From Burkholderia sp. NRF60-BP8 (GTDB lineage Bacteria > Pseudomonadota > Gammaproteobacteria > Burkholderiales > Burkholderiaceae), in the NCBI RefSeq assembly GCF_001522585.2, contig NZ_CP013374.1, forward strand, positions 744,001-808,000: DNA of 64,000 nt, read 5' to 3'. The position numbers were made by a program, and so were the translations under genes. Shown here one piece after another: positions 13,011-37,967 of the stretch. Numbering within the stretch: position 1 is the first letter of the stretch; every line of letters starts with the position of its first letter. The notes below the pieces were generated by a model. It worked only from the letters and a program-made list of their open reading frames with translations. It ran no database searches and had not been told where the DNA came from.

Positions 13011-13114
13011 TTCGCTTTTCGCCAATCGATGGCACGCCGGCGCGCCGCAGCCTTCGCGCGTGCAGGTGCCGGCGGATTCCCTTTCCAGGTGATCTCATCG
13101 CTCAGGAGATGAAA

Positions 13115-13432
13115 ATGCAGATTCGTCCCCTCTACGACCGGGTTATCGTCAAGCGAATCGAACAGCAACGGACGACAACCTCCGGCATCGTGATTCCCGA
13201 TTCGGCGGCCGAACGGCCCGAGCAGGGTGAAGTGATTGCGGTCGGCAGCGGCCGGCTGCTCCAGGACGGCTCGCAGCGCCCGCTGCAGCTCCAGGTCGGC
13301 GACCAGGTTCTCTTCGGCAAATATGCAGGCCAGACCGTGAAGGTGAACGGCGAGGAACTGCTCGTGATGCGCGAAGAGGACGTCATGGGCGTACTCGAAT
13401 CCGAATCTCAGGCTGCCAGGAAAGCGGCCTGA
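13115..13432 (+). CDS. groES: Co-chaperonin GroES (additional copy)
   Basis: A 105-residue GroES, the heptameric lid of the GroEL folding chamber. The core [11 protein letters not shown], the mobile loop around [12 protein letters not shown] (about residues 19-30) and the [12 protein letters not shown] strand are all present. I place the start at 13115 rather than the ATG at 13109: AGGAG (13104-13108) abuts the first ATG but is 6 bases from the second, which begins with the standard MQIRPL. The C-terminus is longer than usual ([12 protein letters not shown] beyond the normal end near VMGVLE). groEL follows 80 bases downstream. Confidence 0.95.
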
Positions 13433-13461
13433 ATACCGATTCGACCGCGTCGCACGGGTAG

Positions 13462-15135
<1,674 letters not shown>

Positions 15136-30799: not shown

Positions 30800-32245
30800 T
30801 CACGAGCGGGATTCGACGGCCAGCAGGGCGAGCAGTCCGTCGAGATCGGTGCGGGCATCGAGCGCCCACAGGGCGTCGAGCGCGTGTCGTGCACGCTTGT
30901 CCGACAGACGCCCCGCGACGTTGTGCCGGAACTTGCGTTCAGTATCGGGGCGCGACGTCGGCTGACCGGGGAAGCCGGGCAACGTGTCGACTTGCCGTTC
31001 GAGCTTTCGACCGTCGTCGAGCGTCACCGTCAGCCGATTCGGAATCGCGTTCGGCTGCATCGCGGTGAGGCGCGCATCCTCGGAGACTGTTGTGACGGCC
31101 ATCAGCGCGCGACCGGCCGGATCGTGCAACGCGGCCGGCGCGTAGCTGTCGCGCGTGATGTCACGGTCGAGCAGCGCGCGAGCGACGATATAGGGCAGGC
31201 TGTGGTCGGCCGTCTCGCGCGTCTCGGGCCGCCACTTTTCGGGATCGCGGCCGGCCGTCACGTAGCCCATGTGCGTCGTGTCGATATGGATCGCGCGGAT
31301 GCGCGCGGGGTCGCCGATGCGCGTCGCGAGGTCGATCGCGGCAGCGATCGCGGTCAGCGTGTAGCCCTGGGCCGGATAGGGTTTGATTGCGCACGCATCG
31401 ATCCGGAACGCGCGTTGCGGGCCGCCGAACGATGCGACGTCGAGTGCGAACGGGCCCGACACCTGCTGAAACAGCCCGGCCCGGCCTTCGAAGATCGGCG
31501 CCGGCCCGGTTACGCCTTCGCGAGCGAGCTGCGCGGAGAACACGCCGTCGCGCGACGCGGACGCGTCCGCGAGGCCTTTCCAGTCGGACAGTTGCTGCAC
31601 GCGTGTCTGGTTCATCGCGAGATGGCCGCTGAGCGACAGATTGACCGCGTGTTCCATCCGGCTGCGATCGAGCCGCATCAGCTTGCCTGCCGCCAGCGCG
31701 ACGGCGGGCAGGCTGTAGACGGGATGATCCCAGCCGCGGCTCGTGATGTTCGCGGCGTCCAGCAGCCGGCAGTCGACTTCGTACGCGAGGACGATCGCGA
31801 GCAACAGGTCGCGGCCGCTCGCGCGTTCGGCTTCGGCGACGGCCAGGCACGGCGCGACGTTGTCGCTCGGATGGCCCGGTTCGGCGCCCACGTACAGATC
31901 GTTGAGATCCTCGTAGCGGATGGCCGCGCCATTGGCGAACGCGGCCAGCTCGGGCGTGGAGCGACGCCGCGTGCCGACGAGCGTCGCCGGCCCCGCGGCC
32001 GTCGTCGCAATGCGCCGGCACATCGCGACGGGCGGCGCATCATGGGCGGCCAGTGCGCAGCCGAGCGCGTCGATGACGTGCGCCTTCGCGGTTTCGATCG
32101 TCGTCGCGTCGAGTGCCTCCCAGTTCAGCGCGGCGGCATAGTCGGCCAGTCGGTGCGCCAGGGTGGGCGTGGCCGGCGCAACCTGGGCGACGGCGGGGCG
32201 GGCGGCGGCCGCGCCCAGCGCGGCGAGAAACGTTCTGCGATTCAT
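30800..32245 (-). CDS. MmgE/PrpD-family protein with Tat-type signal
   Basis: A 481-residue member of the family that includes 2-methylcitrate dehydratase and cis-aconitate decarboxylase. The family core is clear from about residue 45 (ETAKAHVIDALGCALAA, EPGHPSDNVAP, YPAQGYTLTAIAAAI). The N-terminus is MNRRTFLAALGAAAARPAVAQ, a twin-arginine signal with a likely cleavage after Ala20; ordinary PrpD and MmgE proteins are cytoplasmic. It is the last gene of a five-gene operon with a CoA-transferase, a lyase, an amidohydrolase and a transporter, 16 bases after atoE. The reaction is unknown; dehydration or decarboxylation of a tricarboxylate-like acid in the periplasm is possible. Confidence 0.88.
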   Translation of the reverse strand: MNRRTFLAALGAAAARPAVAQVAPATPTLAHRLADYAAALNWEALDATTIETAKAHVIDALGCALAAHDAPPVAMCRRIATTAAGPATLVGTRRRSTPELAAFANGAAIRYEDLNDLYVGAEPGHPSDNVAPCLAVAEAERASGRDLLLAIVLAYEVDCRLLDAANITSRGWDHPVYSLPAVALAAGKLMRLDRSRMEHAVNLSLSGHLAMNQTRVQQLSDWKGLADASASRDGVFSAQLAREGVTGPAPIFEGRAGLFQQVSGPFALDVASFGGPQRAFRIDACAIKPYPAQGYTLTAIAAAIDLATRIGDPARIRAIHIDTTHMGYVTAGRDPEKWRPETRETADHSLPYIVARALLDRDITRDSYAPAALHDPAGRALMAVTTVSEDARLTAMQPNAIPNRLTVTLDDGRKLERQVDTLPGFPGQPTSRPDTERKFRHNVAGRLSDKRARHALDALWALDARTDLDGLLALLAVESRS

Positions 32246-32261
32246 CGTGCCTCCGCGCGCA

Positions 32262-33638
32262 TCAGACGAGCCACAGCAGCGCGCAGCCGTAGACGATCGC
32301 GCCGAGCAAGAACGTCAGCGCGGTGTAGCCGAGCACCCGCTGCACGCCGATGCCGGCCATCGCGACTACCGGTGCGACCCAGAACGGCTGCATCATGTTC
32401 GACACCTGTTCGCCCATTGCGACAGCCATGGTCGTCGCGGGCAGCGACGCGTGCAGCGCGACGGCGGCCGGCACCACGAAGGGGCCTTGTACGGCCCAGT
32501 GTCCGCCGCCGCTCGGGATCAGGAACGTGATCGCGAGCGAGCAGACGTAGCTCCAGAACGGCAGCGTGTCGGCGGTCGCGATCGCGATGAAGCCATGCGC
32601 GATGACGCCCGGCAGGCCGGTCGCGTCCATCAGCCCCATGATGCCGCCGTACAACGGATATTGAACAAGCAGCGAACCCGTCTGCGCGGTTGCCTGCTTG
32701 ATCGCGTGCGCATAGGCGAGCGGGTGGCCGTGGAGCAGCACGCCCGCCGTGAGCATCGCGAGAATCACGACATTGACGCCGGCGAGCGGAATGCGGCCCG
32801 CGTAGGTCAGCGCCAGCACCGACAGGCCCAACAGCCCGGCCAGGACGCTGAGCACGCACGAGCGTTCGAGCCACTGCGCCGGCGAGCGGCGGCCGGCGTC
32901 GCCGGCCGCGGCGGAAGCGGGCGCAGCCGGGGTGGGCTGCAGGTCGAGCGGCAGTGCTTCGGTGCGGGCAGGACCGGGCATGAGCCAGACGAGCAGCGCC
33001 GGCGTCAGCACGAGCATGGCGAGCGTCGGAGCCAGGTTGAAGCGGGTCAGCACGGTTTCGCTGAACGGCAGCACATGGCCGGTCAGCTTCTCGACGACGT
33101 TCATCGCGCTGCCGCGCGTCGATTGCGCGAGTGCGATCGAGCTCGACAGTCCGCTCGCCCACACGACCCACCCCGAGAAGCCGCACGCGACGATCCACGC
33201 GAAATCGACGCGCAGCCGCTTCGCGACTTCGCGCGCCAGCAGCGCGCTGATCACGAGGCCGAATGCCCAGTTGACGAACGACGTGACGGCCACCGACAGG
33301 AAGACCAGCGTCGCTGCCTGGGCCGGCGTGCGCGCAAGCGACACGATCGCGCGGAAGCCGCGCTGCACGAGCGGCGCATGGGCCAGCGCGTGCCCGGTCG
33401 CGAACACGAGCGCCATCTGTGCCGTGAACGTGAGGATGTCGAAGAATCCCTTGGTCCAGCCGCCGATCATGGCGGCCGGCGTCGCGCGCGGCGCGATCGC
33501 GACGGCCAGCACGGCGACGAACGCCGTGATCAGCAGCGCAAGGACGAACGGATCGGGAATCGTGCGCTCGAACACGCGAATCGTCGCGTCGGTCAGGCGG
33601 ATGCGGGCCGCACGAGGCGGGGAATCGGCGAGGCGCAT
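32262..33638 (-). CDS. AtoE-type short-chain fatty acid / organic acid transporter
   Basis: A 458-residue inner-membrane protein with about 12 hydrophobic helices, resembling the AtoE family of short-chain fatty acid carriers (ERTIPDPFVLALLIT, SFVNWAFGLVISALL, IPSGGGHWAVQGPF motifs). The start at 33638 has AGGAG 6 bases upstream; an overlapping ATG four bases earlier is in another frame. It lies between the Tat-type amidohydrolase gene and the Tat-type PrpD-like gene, so its substrate is probably the acid made or consumed by those enzymes. Confidence 0.88.
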   Translation of the reverse strand: MRLADSPPRAARIRLTDATIRVFERTIPDPFVLALLITAFVAVLAVAIAPRATPAAMIGGWTKGFFDILTFTAQMALVFATGHALAHAPLVQRGFRAIVSLARTPAQAATLVFLSVAVTSFVNWAFGLVISALLAREVAKRLRVDFAWIVACGFSGWVVWASGLSSSIALAQSTRGSAMNVVEKLTGHVLPFSETVLTRFNLAPTLAMLVLTPALLVWLMPGPARTEALPLDLQPTPAAPASAAAGDAGRRSPAQWLERSCVLSVLAGLLGLSVLALTYAGRIPLAGVNVVILAMLTAGVLLHGHPLAYAHAIKQATAQTGSLLVQYPLYGGIMGLMDATGLPGVIAHGFIAIATADTLPFWSYVCSLAITFLIPSGGGHWAVQGPFVVPAAVALHASLPATTMAVAMGEQVSNMMQPFWVAPVVAMAGIGVQRVLGYTALTFLLGAIVYGCALLWLV

Positions 33639-33709
33639 GCATGTCTCCTGTTGATGTTTGTCATGTCGGCGATGCGTGTCGACGCTTCGTCGCTGCGGCG
33701 GTGTGGCGC

Positions 33710-34633
33710 TCAGCTGGGGAAGTCGTACAGCTGGGCCGGGTTGCGGACGAGGATCCGCTCGCGCAGATGGTCATCGGGCACCCAGTCCGCGAGTTGATCG
33801 AACAGCCGCGCGTCGTCCGGTGGGACGGTTTCCGTCGCATGCGGCCAGTCGCTGCCCCATACCAGTCGCTCGGGCGCCGCGGCGACCCATGCGCGGGCGA
33901 GCGCGTCGACGTCGGCGAACCGTCCGGACACGCCGACGCGCGAATCGAGGTACGGCCCGGAAAGCTTGACCCAGGCCCGGCCCTGGTCGACGAGGCGGCG
34001 CACGATCGCGAACGCCGGGTGCGACGTGCCGACCGGCTGCGGCAGGCGCGCCATATGGTCGAACACGATGGTCGACGGCAGGCGCATGAGCAGCGTCTCG
34101 TGTGCGGCGATCTGGTCGGCCGTCCAATGGAGCTGCACGTGCCAGCCGAGCGCATGCACGCGCGCGGACAACGCCTCGACCATGTCGAAACGCGTGGGTG
34201 CATGCTCGGGGCGATAGAGCGTGAACCGGATGCCGCGGATGCCGCCGTCGTGGAGCGCGCGCAATTCGGCGTCCGTCACGTCCGTGCGTACCACGCCGAC
34301 GCCACGTGTGCGGTCCGCGCCGAGCTGCCGTATCGCATCGAGCGTCACGCTGTTGTCGGCTGCGTACGCACGCGGCGTGACGACGACGGCGCGCGTGGTA
34401 CCGAGCCTGGCCTGGATCGCGCGCTGGTAGTCGGTCGCCGTCGCATGCGTGTAGACCTCGGCACCGGGTTCGGACGGAAAGCGGCGGTCGAAGACGTGGA
34501 GGTGCGCGTCGCACGCGAGCGGCGGCGCAGCGTGCGCCGGCCTTGTCGTCGTTTCGGCCGCCGCGGGGCCGGGTGCACGCGCGTGCGATGGGCTCGCGGC
34601 GGCGAGCAGGGCGAGGAACGTACGTCTTCTCAT
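33710..34633 (-). CDS. Amidohydrolase (COG3618, lactonase-like) with Tat-type signal
   Basis: A 307-residue TIM-barrel hydrolase. The metal-binding DAHLHVFDR is at about residue 42, and TIVFDHMARLPQP and WGSDWPHAT near the end complete the active site. The YQRAIQARLGTTRAVVV and ADNSVTLDAI stretches resemble the group that holds 2-pyrone-4,6-dicarboxylate hydrolase and D-galactarolactone isomerase, which act on lactones of di- or tricarboxylic acids. MRRRTFLALLAAASPSHARA is a Tat-type signal. GGAG precedes the ATG. It is the third gene of the operon. Lactone opening outside the cytoplasm is my inference. Confidence 0.85.
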   Translation of the reverse strand: MRRRTFLALLAAASPSHARAPGPAAAETTTRPAHAAPPLACDAHLHVFDRRFPSEPGAEVYTHATATDYQRAIQARLGTTRAVVVTPRAYAADNSVTLDAIRQLGADRTRGVGVVRTDVTDAELRALHDGGIRGIRFTLYRPEHAPTRFDMVEALSARVHALGWHVQLHWTADQIAAHETLLMRLPSTIVFDHMARLPQPVGTSHPAFAIVRRLVDQGRAWVKLSGPYLDSRVGVSGRFADVDALARAWVAAAPERLVWGSDWPHATETVPPDDARLFDQLADWVPDDHLRERILVRNPAQLYDFPS

Positions 34634-34689
34634 GGCGTCTCCGGGTGAGTCTTGTCGTTCTGCCGGCGTTCTGCCGGCAGGATGCCGCT

Positions 34690-35922
34690 TCAGCGAATGG
34701 CGCCGCGACGCCGCAGCTCGGCGCGCCGTTCGTCATCGTAGCCGTGCTCGGCGAGCACGTCGTCCGAGTGCTCGCCGAGCGCCGGGGCGCCGAACGGATC
34801 GGGGCCCGGCGTGCGCTCGAACGCGATCGGTCGGCAGAAGCCGCGATAGCGGCCGGCTGCAGGATGGTCGAAATCGGCGACGAGCCGTTCCGCGTCGACT
34901 TGCGGATCGTCGAACATGTCTTCGATCTCGCGTACCGCGGCGCATGGCACGTCGTCGCCGAACACGATTTCCCATTCGCTGGCGGTGCGGGCCAGCAGTG
35001 CGGTGCGCAGCAGCGGGACGAGCGCGTCGTGCGCGTCGGCGCGCTTGCGCACCGTGTCGTAGCGCGGATCGTCGGCGAGCGCGGGCAGGCCGACCTTCAC
35101 GCACAACGCGCGCCAGAAATGCGGCGTGTTCGCGGACAGGTAGAGATAACCGTCGCGGGTCGGATGCAGGCCCGTGACGCCACCCGACCGCATGTCGCGT
35201 CCGACGTCGCGCGTCTCGCCCTCGGCCCAGACCATTCGCGCCGACTGCATCGCGAGTGCGGCGCGCAGCAGCGAGATGCCCACATACTGCCCGGCGCCGC
35301 TGCGGGTCCGTTCGTACAGCGCGGACGCGACGCCTGCGGCGACGAGCGATGCCGCGTAATAGTCGACGACCGAGCCGTACACGATCGACGGCGGCGCGCC
35401 GGGTTCGCCTTGCAGCGCGCACATGCCGGTCATCGCCTGCAGCACCTGGTCGTAGCCGGCCTTGTCCCGCAGCGGGCCCGATTCGCCGTAGCCGCTGACG
35501 GCGCAGTAGACGAGGCGCGGATTGCGTTCGCGAAGCTGCGCGTAGTCGATGCCGAGCCGCGCGGGGACGGCCGGCCGGAAATTGTGGACCAGCACGTCGG
35601 CGTCGCGGACGAGTTCGAGCAGCACCTCGCGACCGGCCGGCTGCTTGAGATCGAGCACGATCCCGCGCTTGCCGCGATTGACGCCGAGGAATGCGCGGCT
35701 CTGCGCGTCCAGCGTCGACGGATAGTTGCGCAGGTTGTCGCCGGCGGGCGGCTCGATCTTGATCACGTCGGCGCCCTGATCGGCCAGCAACGTGCATCCG
35801 TACGGGCCGGCGATGTACGCGCTCAGGTCGAGTACGCGGATGCCGGCGAGCGGGCCGGCGCCGGCGTGGCCGCAACGGGGCGTTTCCGGTGGGGCGGGCG
35901 CGTCGATGAAAGGTCGGGTCAT
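34690..35922 (-). CDS. CaiB/BaiF-family (class III) CoA-transferase
   Basis: A 410-residue CoA-transferase that would activate an organic acid to its CoA thioester. The class III signature is present: GIRVLDLSAYIAGPY at the start of the core, and the catalytic aspartate D158 in KAGYDQVLQAMTG. Its ATG overlaps the stop of the lyase gene (ATGA, 35919-35922), so the two are translationally coupled. Pairing with a CitE-like lyase suggests the thioester is cleaved directly, as in succinyl-CoA:acid transferase plus citramalyl-CoA or malyl-CoA lyase pathways. Confidence 0.92.
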   Translation of the reverse strand: MTRPFIDAPAPPETPRCGHAGAGPLAGIRVLDLSAYIAGPYGCTLLADQGADVIKIEPPAGDNLRNYPSTLDAQSRAFLGVNRGKRGIVLDLKQPAGREVLLELVRDADVLVHNFRPAVPARLGIDYAQLRERNPRLVYCAVSGYGESGPLRDKAGYDQVLQAMTGMCALQGEPGAPPSIVYGSVVDYYAASLVAAGVASALYERTRSGAGQYVGISLLRAALAMQSARMVWAEGETRDVGRDMRSGGVTGLHPTRDGYLYLSANTPHFWRALCVKVGLPALADDPRYDTVRKRADAHDALVPLLRTALLARTASEWEIVFGDDVPCAAVREIEDMFDDPQVDAERLVADFDHPAAGRYRGFCRPIAFERTPGPDPFGAPALGEHSDDVLAEHGYDDERRAELRRRGAIR

Positions 35923-36818
35923 GGTGCGATGCGAGCAGGTTGCGGCGCGGTGTCGGGCGGGGGGATCAGGCCGAATGCAATCGCCTCGTCGACGATCGCG
36001 CGTGCGCGGGCGACGAAGGGCGCGTCGATCATCCGGCCGTCGACCACGTACGCGCCGCGGCCGTCGATGGCGGCCTGCCGCTGCGCGTCGAGCACCCGCA
36101 ATGCCGCATGGATTTCGTCGAGCGTCGGCCGGAACACGTCGTTGGCGATACCGACCTGCGTCGGATGGATGCAGCTCTTGCCCGCGAAGCCGAGGCGCCG
36201 CGCCAGCCTCGCCTCGCTGCGAAAGCCGTCGATGTCCGCGATGTCGGCGAACGCGGCGTCGTAGGCGGCGATGCCCGCCTCGCCTGCGGCGGCGCGTACG
36301 GCGAGCATCACGGGCACGATCGCCGCGGTTTCGCGGCGATCGATGCCGAGCGGTTCGAACAGGTCGCCGAGGCCGAGCTGCAAGCCGATCACGCGCGGAT
36401 GGGCCGTCGCGAGTTCGGATGCGAGCCGCAGCGCACGCGGCGTTTCGATGTTGACGAGGAGCCCGATTGGCGTCGCGACGCCGTTGCGGCGCTCGGCCCG
36501 TTCGAGGGCGGCCGCCGCTGCGCGCACGTCGTCCGCGTCGCGGGGTTTGGGCAGGTTGACGATCGCGACGCCCGAGCGCGCGACCGCGTCGAGATCGGTG
36601 TCGAAGCCGCGCGTGCCGAGCGCGTTCACGCGCACCACGATGGTTTTCGTCGCCGGCAGCGGCTGGTCGAGCCGCGCGCGCAGCGCGGCTCGCGCGGCAT
36701 CCTTGCGGTCGTCGGCGACCGCGTCCTCGAGATCGAACGACACGGCGTCGGCGGCACCGTTCAGGGCCTTGTCGAACAGGTCGGGACGGGAGCAGGGAAC
36801 AAACAGTTTGCTTTTCAT
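35919..36818 (-). CDS. HpcH/HpaI/CitE-family aldolase/lyase
   Basis: A 299-residue TIM-barrel lyase of the citrate-lyase-beta/malyl-CoA lyase type. Family signatures are SFDLEDAVADDRKDAAR near residue 27, a metal-binding Glu in LVNIETPRAL, the QLGLGDLFEPLG loop and GFAGKSCIHPTQV. It would cleave a 3-hydroxyacyl-CoA such as malyl-CoA or citramalyl-CoA to acetyl-CoA (or propionyl-CoA) plus an oxo acid. It is the first gene of the operon and overlaps the CoA-transferase gene by four bases. A LysR gene diverges from it 75 bases away. Confidence 0.92.
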   Translation of the reverse strand: MKSKLFVPCSRPDLFDKALNGAADAVSFDLEDAVADDRKDAARAALRARLDQPLPATKTIVVRVNALGTRGFDTDLDAVARSGVAIVNLPKPRDADDVRAAAAALERAERRNGVATPIGLLVNIETPRALRLASELATAHPRVIGLQLGLGDLFEPLGIDRRETAAIVPVMLAVRAAAGEAGIAAYDAAFADIADIDGFRSEARLARRLGFAGKSCIHPTQVGIANDVFRPTLDEIHAALRVLDAQRQAAIDGRGAYVVDGRMIDAPFVARARAIVDEAIAFGLIPPPDTAPQPARIAP

Positions 36819-36875
36819 GCGGCCAGTATAGAAACCCCGCTACACTCGATGAATACAGGTTTGATTCCTTCAAAC

Positions 36876-36890
36876 GATAGAAAATCTATC
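36876..36890. promoter_or_regulatory. Palindromic site in the lyase/LysR intergenic region
   Basis: GATAG-AAAAT-CTATC, a perfect inverted repeat with 5-base spacer, lies between the divergent lyase and LysR genes, a few bases before the LysR start at 36894. It has the look of a LysR-type regulatory box and would let the regulator control itself and the operon. Confidence 0.5.
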
Positions 36891-36893
36891 TTT

Positions 36894-37772
36894 ATGGATA
36901 TCGTGTTCCTCAAGAGCTTCGTGCTCGTCGCCGATACGGGCTCGATGGCGCAGGCCGCTCGCCGCCTCGATCTCACGCCCGCCGCGGTTGCCTTGCAGAT
37001 GCGGGTGCTGGAGCGGGAGCTGGGCGTGGCACTGCTCGCCCGCGCCGGGCGATCGGTGCGGCCGACCGAGGCCGGCTACCGCGTGCTCGAGCGTGCGCGC
37101 GGGCTGGTCCGCGAGTTCGACGGCCTGAAATCGGTCGCGGCCGACGATGCGCAGCTGTCCGGGGAATTGCGTCTCGGCGCGATCAACACCGCGTTGCACA
37201 GTATCCTGCCCGACGTGCTGGCACAGTTCGCGACCCAGCATCCGCGGCTGAGGGTGCTGATCCAGTCCGGTACGTCGGCGGAGCTTTACGAGTCGGTGCG
37301 GCGAGGGGATCACGATGCGGCGGTCTGTCTGCATCCGAGTTTCGCGCTGCCGAAAAGCATGGTCTGGGAACTGTTGCGCATCGAGCCGCTCGTCGTGCTG
37401 GCGCCGCAGGCGCTCGCCGCGCGCGACGCGCACGACCTGCTGCGCCAGGAGCCGCTCATTCGCTACGACCGGAGTCTCGGCGGCGGCAAGCAGGCCGACC
37501 GTTATCTGCGCGATCACGGGATCGATCCGCACGAACGCTTCGAGATCAATTCGCTGCTGGCGATCGCGATGATGGTCGAGCGCGGGCTGGGCGTGTCGCT
37601 GGTGCCGGACATTGCGTCGCCGCTCGCGGAGCGGTTGAGGATCGTGCGGCTCGCGTTGCCGAAGCCGACCGAACCGCGGCGCTTCGGCATACTCTGGCGC
37701 CGGGGCTCGGCGCGCGAGGGTGCGATCCGCGAATGGCTCGCGATCAGCCGCCGGATGGTGCAGCGTCGTTGA
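36894..37772 (+). CDS. LysR-type transcriptional regulator of the catabolic operon
   Basis: A 292-residue LysR protein. The helix-turn-helix is at residues about 5-60 (LKSFVLVADTGSMAQAARRLDLTPAAVALQMRVLERELG) and the effector domain follows (GELRLGAINTALHSILPDV). I use the ATG at 36894, which gives a normal N-terminus; an ATG at 36849 would add 15 residues and would put the palindrome inside the gene. It is divergent from the five-gene lyase operon and is the obvious candidate to sense its substrate. Confidence 0.9.
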   Translation: MDIVFLKSFVLVADTGSMAQAARRLDLTPAAVALQMRVLERELGVALLARAGRSVRPTEAGYRVLERARGLVREFDGLKSVAADDAQLSGELRLGAINTALHSILPDVLAQFATQHPRLRVLIQSGTSAELYESVRRGDHDAAVCLHPSFALPKSMVWELLRIEPLVVLAPQALAARDAHDLLRQEPLIRYDRSLGGGKQADRYLRDHGIDPHERFEINSLLAIAMMVERGLGVSLVPDIASPLAERLRIVRLALPKPTEPRRFGILWRRGSAREGAIREWLAISRRMVQRR

Positions 37773-37967
37773 TCTGTCGGCGGCCATGCGGATGGCGACG
37801 GAGCGGCGGACGAAGCCGGCGGCGCTGGCCGACGCCCGGTTTCTACCGTCGGCCGACTCGAGCCGTGCGCTGCGCTCACGGGCACGAACATGACGCGAAG
37901 GCGGTCCGACCAAATTGGATCGGCGCCTGATCGCAGCCCCGCAAACACTCGGCAACGACACCTGCCG

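Follow-up and report, generated by a model that had tools for sequence, protein, structure and literature searches.

A transferable LysR-linked operon in Burkholderia, with a core that may degrade a lactone-forming hydroxyacid and an accessory MmgE/PrpD protein with a Tat-type signal

Which acid is degraded by a five-gene operon of Burkholderia sp. NRF60-BP8, and which of its steps, if any, take place outside the cytoplasm? The operon lies in a stretch of 64,000 nucleotides (contig NZ_CP013374.1, positions 744,001 to 808,000; here called the window) on contig 3 of a 7.08 Mb genome of three contigs. It encodes a CitE-type coenzyme A (CoA)-ester lyase, a class III CoA-transferase, a LigI-type amidohydrolase, a short-chain fatty acid (SCFA)-type transporter and an MmgE/PrpD protein, here called PrpD. 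A sequence-only reading had proposed that the amidohydrolase and PrpD are both targeted to the twin-arginine translocation (Tat) pathway, acting on a lactone and its product before import, CoA activation and cleavage. All five genes were found on the minus strand in the order and place proposed, with Pfam scores far over cut-off, and the twin-arginine (RR) motifs MRRRTFLAL and MNRRTFLAAL do stand at the starts of the amidohydrolase and PrpD, respectively. The span given for the operon, 30800..36818, holds these genes but omitted a divergent LysR-type regulator. Our preferred reading, to which we assign a probability of about 0.5, is that of a transferable operon, linked to LysR, that degrades a citrate- or malate-like 2-hydroxy-di- or tricarboxylic acid with a lactone form, PrpD being an accessory enzyme.

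Comparison of loci defines what the operon consists of. With the amidohydrolase as bait, matches were obtained in 92 of 398 family genomes (1e-70) and 5 of 398 phylum genomes (1e-65), the own genome counted, and regions were taken from these lists (40 from the family list and ten from both). The amidohydrolase is partnered by the CoA-transferase and the CitE-type lyase in 44 loci (the window, L032, L033, L035, L039, L172, L130-L166 and L180), in which neighbouring genes were counted within 6.5 kb. A LysR orthologue stands beside the core in 43 of the 44, the exception (L157) ending at a contig edge, and an orthologue of the SCFA-type transporter is present in 38; the remaining 6 carry TctC receptors in its place, as pairs. 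A 2-hydroxycarboxylate transporter (2HCT, PF03390) occurs in 20 loci and PrpD in 12, while 6 are without PrpD, 2HCT and TctC alike. PrpD is damaged in two of its 12 loci, L039 and L150, the latter entered as PrpD-bearing although its match covers residues 335-479 only. The core is thus a LysR-linked set of lactonase, CoA-transferase, lyase and transporter in which PrpD is optional, being present in just 12 of the 44 operons. The proposal of a single catabolic unit is borne out. Conservation extends to the core, though not to PrpD or, in every locus, the SCFA-type transporter, and PrpD is no indispensable link between ring opening and import. As a side observation, degenerate-looking PrpD genes comprise those of L039 (9937-11079, inverted and with the N-terminus gone) and L150, and that of L170 (19986-21351, frameshifted in the record), an operon on a Methylobacterium plasmid.

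The operon has also moved as a unit. Together with LysR it forms a cassette of ca. 7 kb that is 89-90% identical by blastn between the window, L032 (4429-11433, Burkholderia sp. BCC1644) and L033 (4459-11446, Burkholderia territorii LMG 28158), hereafter the trio. When the window was aligned with L032 and L033 by blastn, nothing flanking the cassette matched, the sole other match being a separate groEL-like stretch in L032. High identity between unrelated flanks demonstrates that the cassette has moved horizontally. Across the genus, 25 of 65 genomes hold a PrpD homologue at an E-value of 1e-60 or better. Three of these (the own genome, G196 and G192) carry one at least 86% identical, and the other 22 carry a 59-62% type, which lies in a different cluster in the two of those 22 genomes and the one B. 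stagnalis plasmid inspected. The coordinates of all features in the window are collected in Table 1.

Table 1. Features of the operon and its cassette in the window (positions are those of the window).
Feature	Coordinates	Strand	Evidence or remark
CitE-type CoA-ester lyase (HpcH/HpaI family)	35919..36818	minus	Pfam HpcH_HpaI 135 bits
Class III CoA-transferase	34690..35922	minus	Pfam CoA_transf_3 413 bits; ATG overlaps CitE stop by 4 bp
LigI-type amidohydrolase, probable lactonase, RR-type N-terminus	33710..34633	minus	Pfam Amidohydro_2 153 bits
RR-type N-terminal extension of amidohydrolase, 39 codons	34517..34633	minus	
SCFA-type (AtoE-like) transporter	32262..33638	minus	Pfam SCFA_trans 349 bits
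MmgE/PrpD protein, probable hydro-lyase	30800..32245	minus	Pfam MmgE_PrpD N/C 235.6/132.7 bits against a gathering score of 32.1
Tat-type signal region of MmgE/PrpD, 31 codons	32153..32245	minus	
LysR-type regulator, divergent from operon	36894..37772	plus	Pfam HTH_1 and LysR_substrate
Cassette common to three Burkholderia	30800..37802		blastn, 89-90% identity, flanks unrelated

PrpD is very probably exported by the Tat pathway, for which the genome encodes a tatC (231.9 bits). N-termini were scored by a rule requiring RR within the first 35 residues, followed by 12 residues without Asp, Glu or Lys, with at most one Arg and a mean hydropathy above 1. This was applied to 106 PrpD rows, of which 39 share at least 48% identity and the other 67 less; among the latter are six genes fetched twice. 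In the closer group all 37 proteins that could be scored have a Tat-type N-terminus (L039 and L170 being unscorable), and the rule is passed by none of the 67 more distant rows, whose best hydropathy is 0.72. In a tree of 75 of the 106 rows, the 37 Tat-type proteins form one clade with a Shimodaira-Hasegawa-like approximate likelihood ratio (SH-aLRT) support of 99, and its sister is a Variovorax protein without signal. Homologues at 47-48% in L199 and L200, from the same class outside the order, also lack a signal; these were obtained after the tree and are not included in it. In the Methylobacterium operon L170, the upstream frame of the frameshifted PrpD encodes an RR-type signal. Conservation across one clade, with none outside it, renders the PrpD signal convincing, and what is both new and firm in this analysis is this clade of PrpD proteins with Tat-type N-termini.

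The case for the amidohydrolase is different. In the window, no further start codon follows its ATG before the domain begins; in L032 and L033 the gene caller placed the start inside or near the domain, and the upstream ATG, conserved in all three, was used instead. The gene opens with ATG AGA AGA CGT (34622-34633), using AGA twice at a G+C content of ca. 70%, and the same three Arg codons are found in L032 and L033. An RR-type N-terminus is present in 3 of 42 scored operon copies, those of the trio alone (stretch hydropathy 1.15-1.46). The two unscored copies (L134 and L161, in which the core motif was not found by the script) carry no signal by eye, and the signal-less copies include those of seven PrpD-bearing operons (L035, L138, L142, L145, L146, L152 and L158). 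In the amidohydrolase tree the trio belongs to a clade of 44 rows, just 3 of which have a signal (support 99/97); since the nearest outgroups carry Tat-type N-termini, gain and retention of the trio's signal are both possible. A separate amidohydrolase (45% identical) with a clear Tat-type N-terminus is encoded outside the operon in other genomes of the genus (L167 8326, L168 8572-9495, L169 9539). Within the trio, the ratio of non-synonymous to synonymous substitution rates (Ka/Ks) is 0.75-0.93 for the amidohydrolase N-terminus against 0.11-0.20 for the remainder. However, this is a weak test of the signal, because codons 1-22 of the CoA-transferase, which has no signal, are relaxed as well (0.65-2.34). 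With 39 of 42 scored copies lacking a signal, ring opening would normally be cytoplasmic in relatives, and an exported lactonase may be a lineage-specific trait.

These results bear directly on the full route of the sequence-only reading, in which lactonase and PrpD act consecutively in the periplasm, the product is imported by the SCFA-type transporter, and activation and cleavage follow inside. It draws on the RR-type N-termini of both proteins throughout the trio (hydropathy 1.15-1.46 in the amidohydrolase and 1.30-1.93 in PrpD) and again in L170, whose PrpD groups with that of the trio (SH-aLRT 95). The 39 signal-less amidohydrolases, together with the weakly constrained N-terminus of the trio's own, render it unlikely. 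Two exported enzymes are therefore conceivable for the window's lineage and the Methylobacterium plasmid operon but are not supported as a general trait, nor is periplasmic lactone opening as the general route. Confined to those carriers, a scheme in which citrate-like lactones (fungal 2-hydroxyparaconate and plant hydroxycitrate lactone may serve as examples) pass through two periplasmic steps, by lactonase and PrpD-type dehydratase, and are then taken up, activated with CoA and cleaved in the manner of citryl-CoA would amount to a new pathway with the first exported MmgE/PrpD enzymes, a prospect that we consider quite unlikely.

Conversely, the RR N-termini might not direct export at all, leaving both enzymes in the cytoplasm of an ordinary acid-degradation operon. 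Among 708 called genes of at least 150 amino acids from the window and 55 loci, 29 pass a loose RR-plus-hydrophobic-stretch rule (stretch of at least 1.15) and 18 a tighter one; at this base rate a single RR hit is weak, although two neighbouring hits are unlikely by chance. In addition, the hydrophobic stretch of the window PrpD is short, with an Arg after 11 uncharged residues. Ka/Ks of the trio's PrpD N-terminus is 0.19-0.62 against 0.11-0.19 for the remainder. Set against the restriction of Tat-type N-termini to one PrpD clade, in 37 of 37 scorable rows and 0 of 67 outside, an entirely cytoplasmic operon appears improbable.

Turning to the chemistry, statements on active sites rest on sequence alignment. 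His125, Lys223 and Lys288 of the window PrpD align with the corresponding residues of IDS epimerase and PrpD. The window protein also shares Arg110, Asn115, Glu122, Asp128, Asn129, Asp173, His174, Lys223 and Lys288 with the methylcitrate dehydratase encoded elsewhere in the same genome (L002), an ordinary member of that family (NCBIfam 896.5 bits, cut-off 575). Roles of the catalytic His and conserved Lys of the PrpD family are described in the portion of PMC12290011 consulted. At the position of His85/His88 (2HP0 and P. aeruginosa numbering), the His of methylsuccinate isomerase and IDS epimerase is replaced by Arg110 in the window protein, as it is throughout the aligned rows of the Tat clade. 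Given the match of its active-site residues to the genome's own methylcitrate dehydratase, the window PrpD is, by analogy, more likely a hydro-lyase than an epimerase. Compared with 2-methylcitrate dehydratase PrpD it has the same fold family and active-site pattern, but differs in its ca. 30% identity, RR-type signal, gene context and scores under the three NCBIfam cut-offs (176.5 against 950, 115.5 against 575 and 94.8 against 458 bits).

The amidohydrolase has LigI (4d8l) as its closest solved relative. The HxH, His and Asp residues are kept, also in the 6 operon or outgroup copies aligned, in agreement with its earlier description as lactonase-like; one of two aligned Arg residues is retained, whereas the other Arg and a Tyr have no counterpart. 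In LigI, the HxH, His and Asp belong to the active site, and that Tyr and Arg to the pocket. HxH, His, Asp and one Arg are thus common to the window protein and amidohydrolases of the LigI and D-galactarolactone isomerase type; it differs from LigI at two pocket residues and stands in a context of CoA-dependent acid degradation. For the lyase, Glu and Asp residues align with metal-site type residues of malyl-CoA lyase, a role we take them to share, and the Asp of the CoA-transferase GYD motif aligns with that of formyl-CoA transferase, presumably as an active-site residue. The best NCBIfam model for the lyase is citE (198 bits, cut-off 443), RipC_Ccl reaching 147.5 bits (cut-off 375). For the transporter, TIGR00366 scores 343 bits (cut-off 575.75), with the broader Pfam SCFA_trans well matched.

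From family chemistry, we infer the following core steps. The SCFA-type transporter would import the acid, either free or as lactone, and the LigI-type amidohydrolase would open the lactone. The class III CoA-transferase would form the CoA ester of the acid, from which the CitE-type lyase would release acetyl-CoA (or a homologue), leaving a 2-oxoacid. Activation with CoA and cleavage of CitE type had been anticipated and remain the likely chemistry. The accessory PrpD, most likely periplasmic, would hydrate or dehydrate an isomer of the substrate and so widen the pool available to the core. Export of the lactonase as well is conceivable in the lineage of the window.

Several lines point to the class of substrate. 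The carboxylate transporters of orthologous operons (SCFA type, 2HCT and TctC) are interchangeable, and a signal-less PrpD cousin (48%) lies in L199 (2193-9737) beside a citrate:proton symporter (CitMHS, 493 bits), a D-2-hydroxyacid dehydrogenase, AtuA, DUF4387 and LeuC/LeuD-type hydratase subunits; that of L200 (3898-9717, 47-48%) stands in a similar operon, family scans having been run on L199 only. Because of the 2HCT and TctC transporters, this symporter, the methylcitrate-dehydratase-like site of PrpD and the CitE-type lyase, we infer a lactone-forming, citrate- or malate-like 2-hydroxyacid of the di- or tricarboxylic type. Speculatively, itatartarate/2-hydroxyparaconate, or else hydroxycitrate or homocitrate with their lactones, may be put forward as candidates, a choice that draws on their general chemistry, and we know of no complete bacterial route for 2-hydroxyparaconate/itatartarate, hydroxycitrate or homocitrate-type lactones. 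In the sections consulted of PMC9875883, the P. aeruginosa 2-hydroxyparaconate lactonase is of another kind and no strain could grow with 2-hydroxyparaconate; there, De Witt et al. speculate that itatartarate could be dehydrated by an aconitase-like enzyme, which is the chemistry of the PrpD type.

Related gene sets at other loci bear on the substrate class too, a parallel set with a citryl-CoA lyase giving a further hint of a citrate-like acid. On plasmid pMNOD01 of Methylobacterium nodulans (L198 11851-16789), LysR, a class III CoA-transferase, a C-C lyase, a lactonase-type amidohydrolase and a DASS-annotated carboxylate transporter are combined as in the window. Here, however, the lyase is a citryl-CoA lyase of citrate-synthase fold (475.7 bits, over the cut-off of 261), the amidohydrolase belongs to another subgroup (only NCBIfam match L-fucono-1,5-lactonase, 76.5 bits against 400) and PrpD is missing. 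A second, non-orthologous Burkholderia set (L034 3723-18256; L036; L174) contains a Tat-type PrpD with a porin, plus a cytoplasmic PrpD. In L034 its partners are a CitE (37%) and CoA-transferase (31-32%) of its own, a cyclase-family hydrolase, an IclR regulator and an MFS transporter.

An aromatic or sugar-acid route, with the amidohydrolase acting on 2-pyrone-4,6-dicarboxylate, muconolactone or a sugar-acid lactone, would fit LigI as nearest solved relative and 4-sulfomuconolactone hydrolase as sole NCBIfam match. That match reaches just 155.9 bits against a cut-off of 500, the LigI pocket Tyr and second Arg do not align with the same residues, and a CoA-transferase and CitE-type lyase are the partners in every one of the 44 loci, so this route is very unlikely.

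The closest described system is the itaconate/methylsuccinate cluster (PMC12290011, PMC9875883), which, in the excerpts consulted, likewise unites a class III CoA-transferase, a CitE-family lyase and an MmgE/PrpD protein, in P. aeruginosa with a carboxylate transporter close by. It differs in its itaconyl-CoA hydratase and methylsuccinyl-CoA dehydrogenase, neither of which was seen in the window operon, in a 2-hydroxyparaconate lactonase of 127 amino acids from a family other than that of the window amidohydrolase, and in that those excerpts mention no Tat signal, the window PrpD having one of RR type. A variant of this system, in which PrpD would be a methylsuccinate-type isomerase, the class III transferase would activate itaconate and CitE would cleave citramalyl-CoA, has these families and the RipC_Ccl match in its favour but is highly improbable, given the sub-cut-off score of that match, the Arg110 replacement and the lack of an itaconyl-CoA hydratase or acyl-CoA dehydrogenase among the genes called beside the operon in the window. 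In C. necator, the part of PMC12290011 consulted describes a second lyase gene by a CoA-transferase that is thought not to serve itaconate.

Against the preferred reading of a hydroxyacid operon with accessory PrpD stand several observations, among them the short PrpD stretch with its Arg. No NCBIfam cut-off is reached among the matches listed for the six proteins (25 of 54 for LysR), so that every activity of an operon protein is assigned by analogy. L038, L040 and L041, although members of the Tat clade, differ at positions 174 and 129, with His174 lost. L170 has LysR next to a set of 2HCT, CoA ester lyase, CoA transferase, amidohydrolase and PrpD; its CoA-transferase is just 29% identical to that of the window. 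Furthermore, PrpD and 2HCT occur together in 0 of 44 loci (12 and 20 carriers; p 1.3e-4 with kinship ignored). A kinship-aware test on 42 rows yielded 5 pairs, 0 the same way, 3 the other way and 2 without difference (median p 0.25), so this exclusivity is a pattern only and not significant once kinship is counted.

Two features of the surroundings may be added. A LysR box between LysR and CitE was sought and rejected, as L032 and L033 have a 15-base imperfect palindrome, the window a different one and other operons share none. An extra groES/groEL-like pair lies 15 kb from the operon in the window (13109-15135) and another directly beside the same operon in L032 (2402-4345), the groEL stretches being 80% identical.

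Neither an operon of this kind nor an exported MmgE/PrpD protein was found described in the open-access PMC literature searched, in line with the novelty first suggested for the route; the portable operon is real and is without match to a characterised one. Nor does the literature examined mention export of the MmgE/PrpD enzymes characterised so far, namely methylcitrate dehydratase, cis-aconitate decarboxylase, epimerase and methylsuccinate isomerase. The enzymes of the operon are small and soluble, and the candidate substrates are fungal or plant acids. If true, a Tat-type PrpD clade beside a portable CoA-dependent core would mean that the conversion of such acids has been shifted ahead of their uptake.

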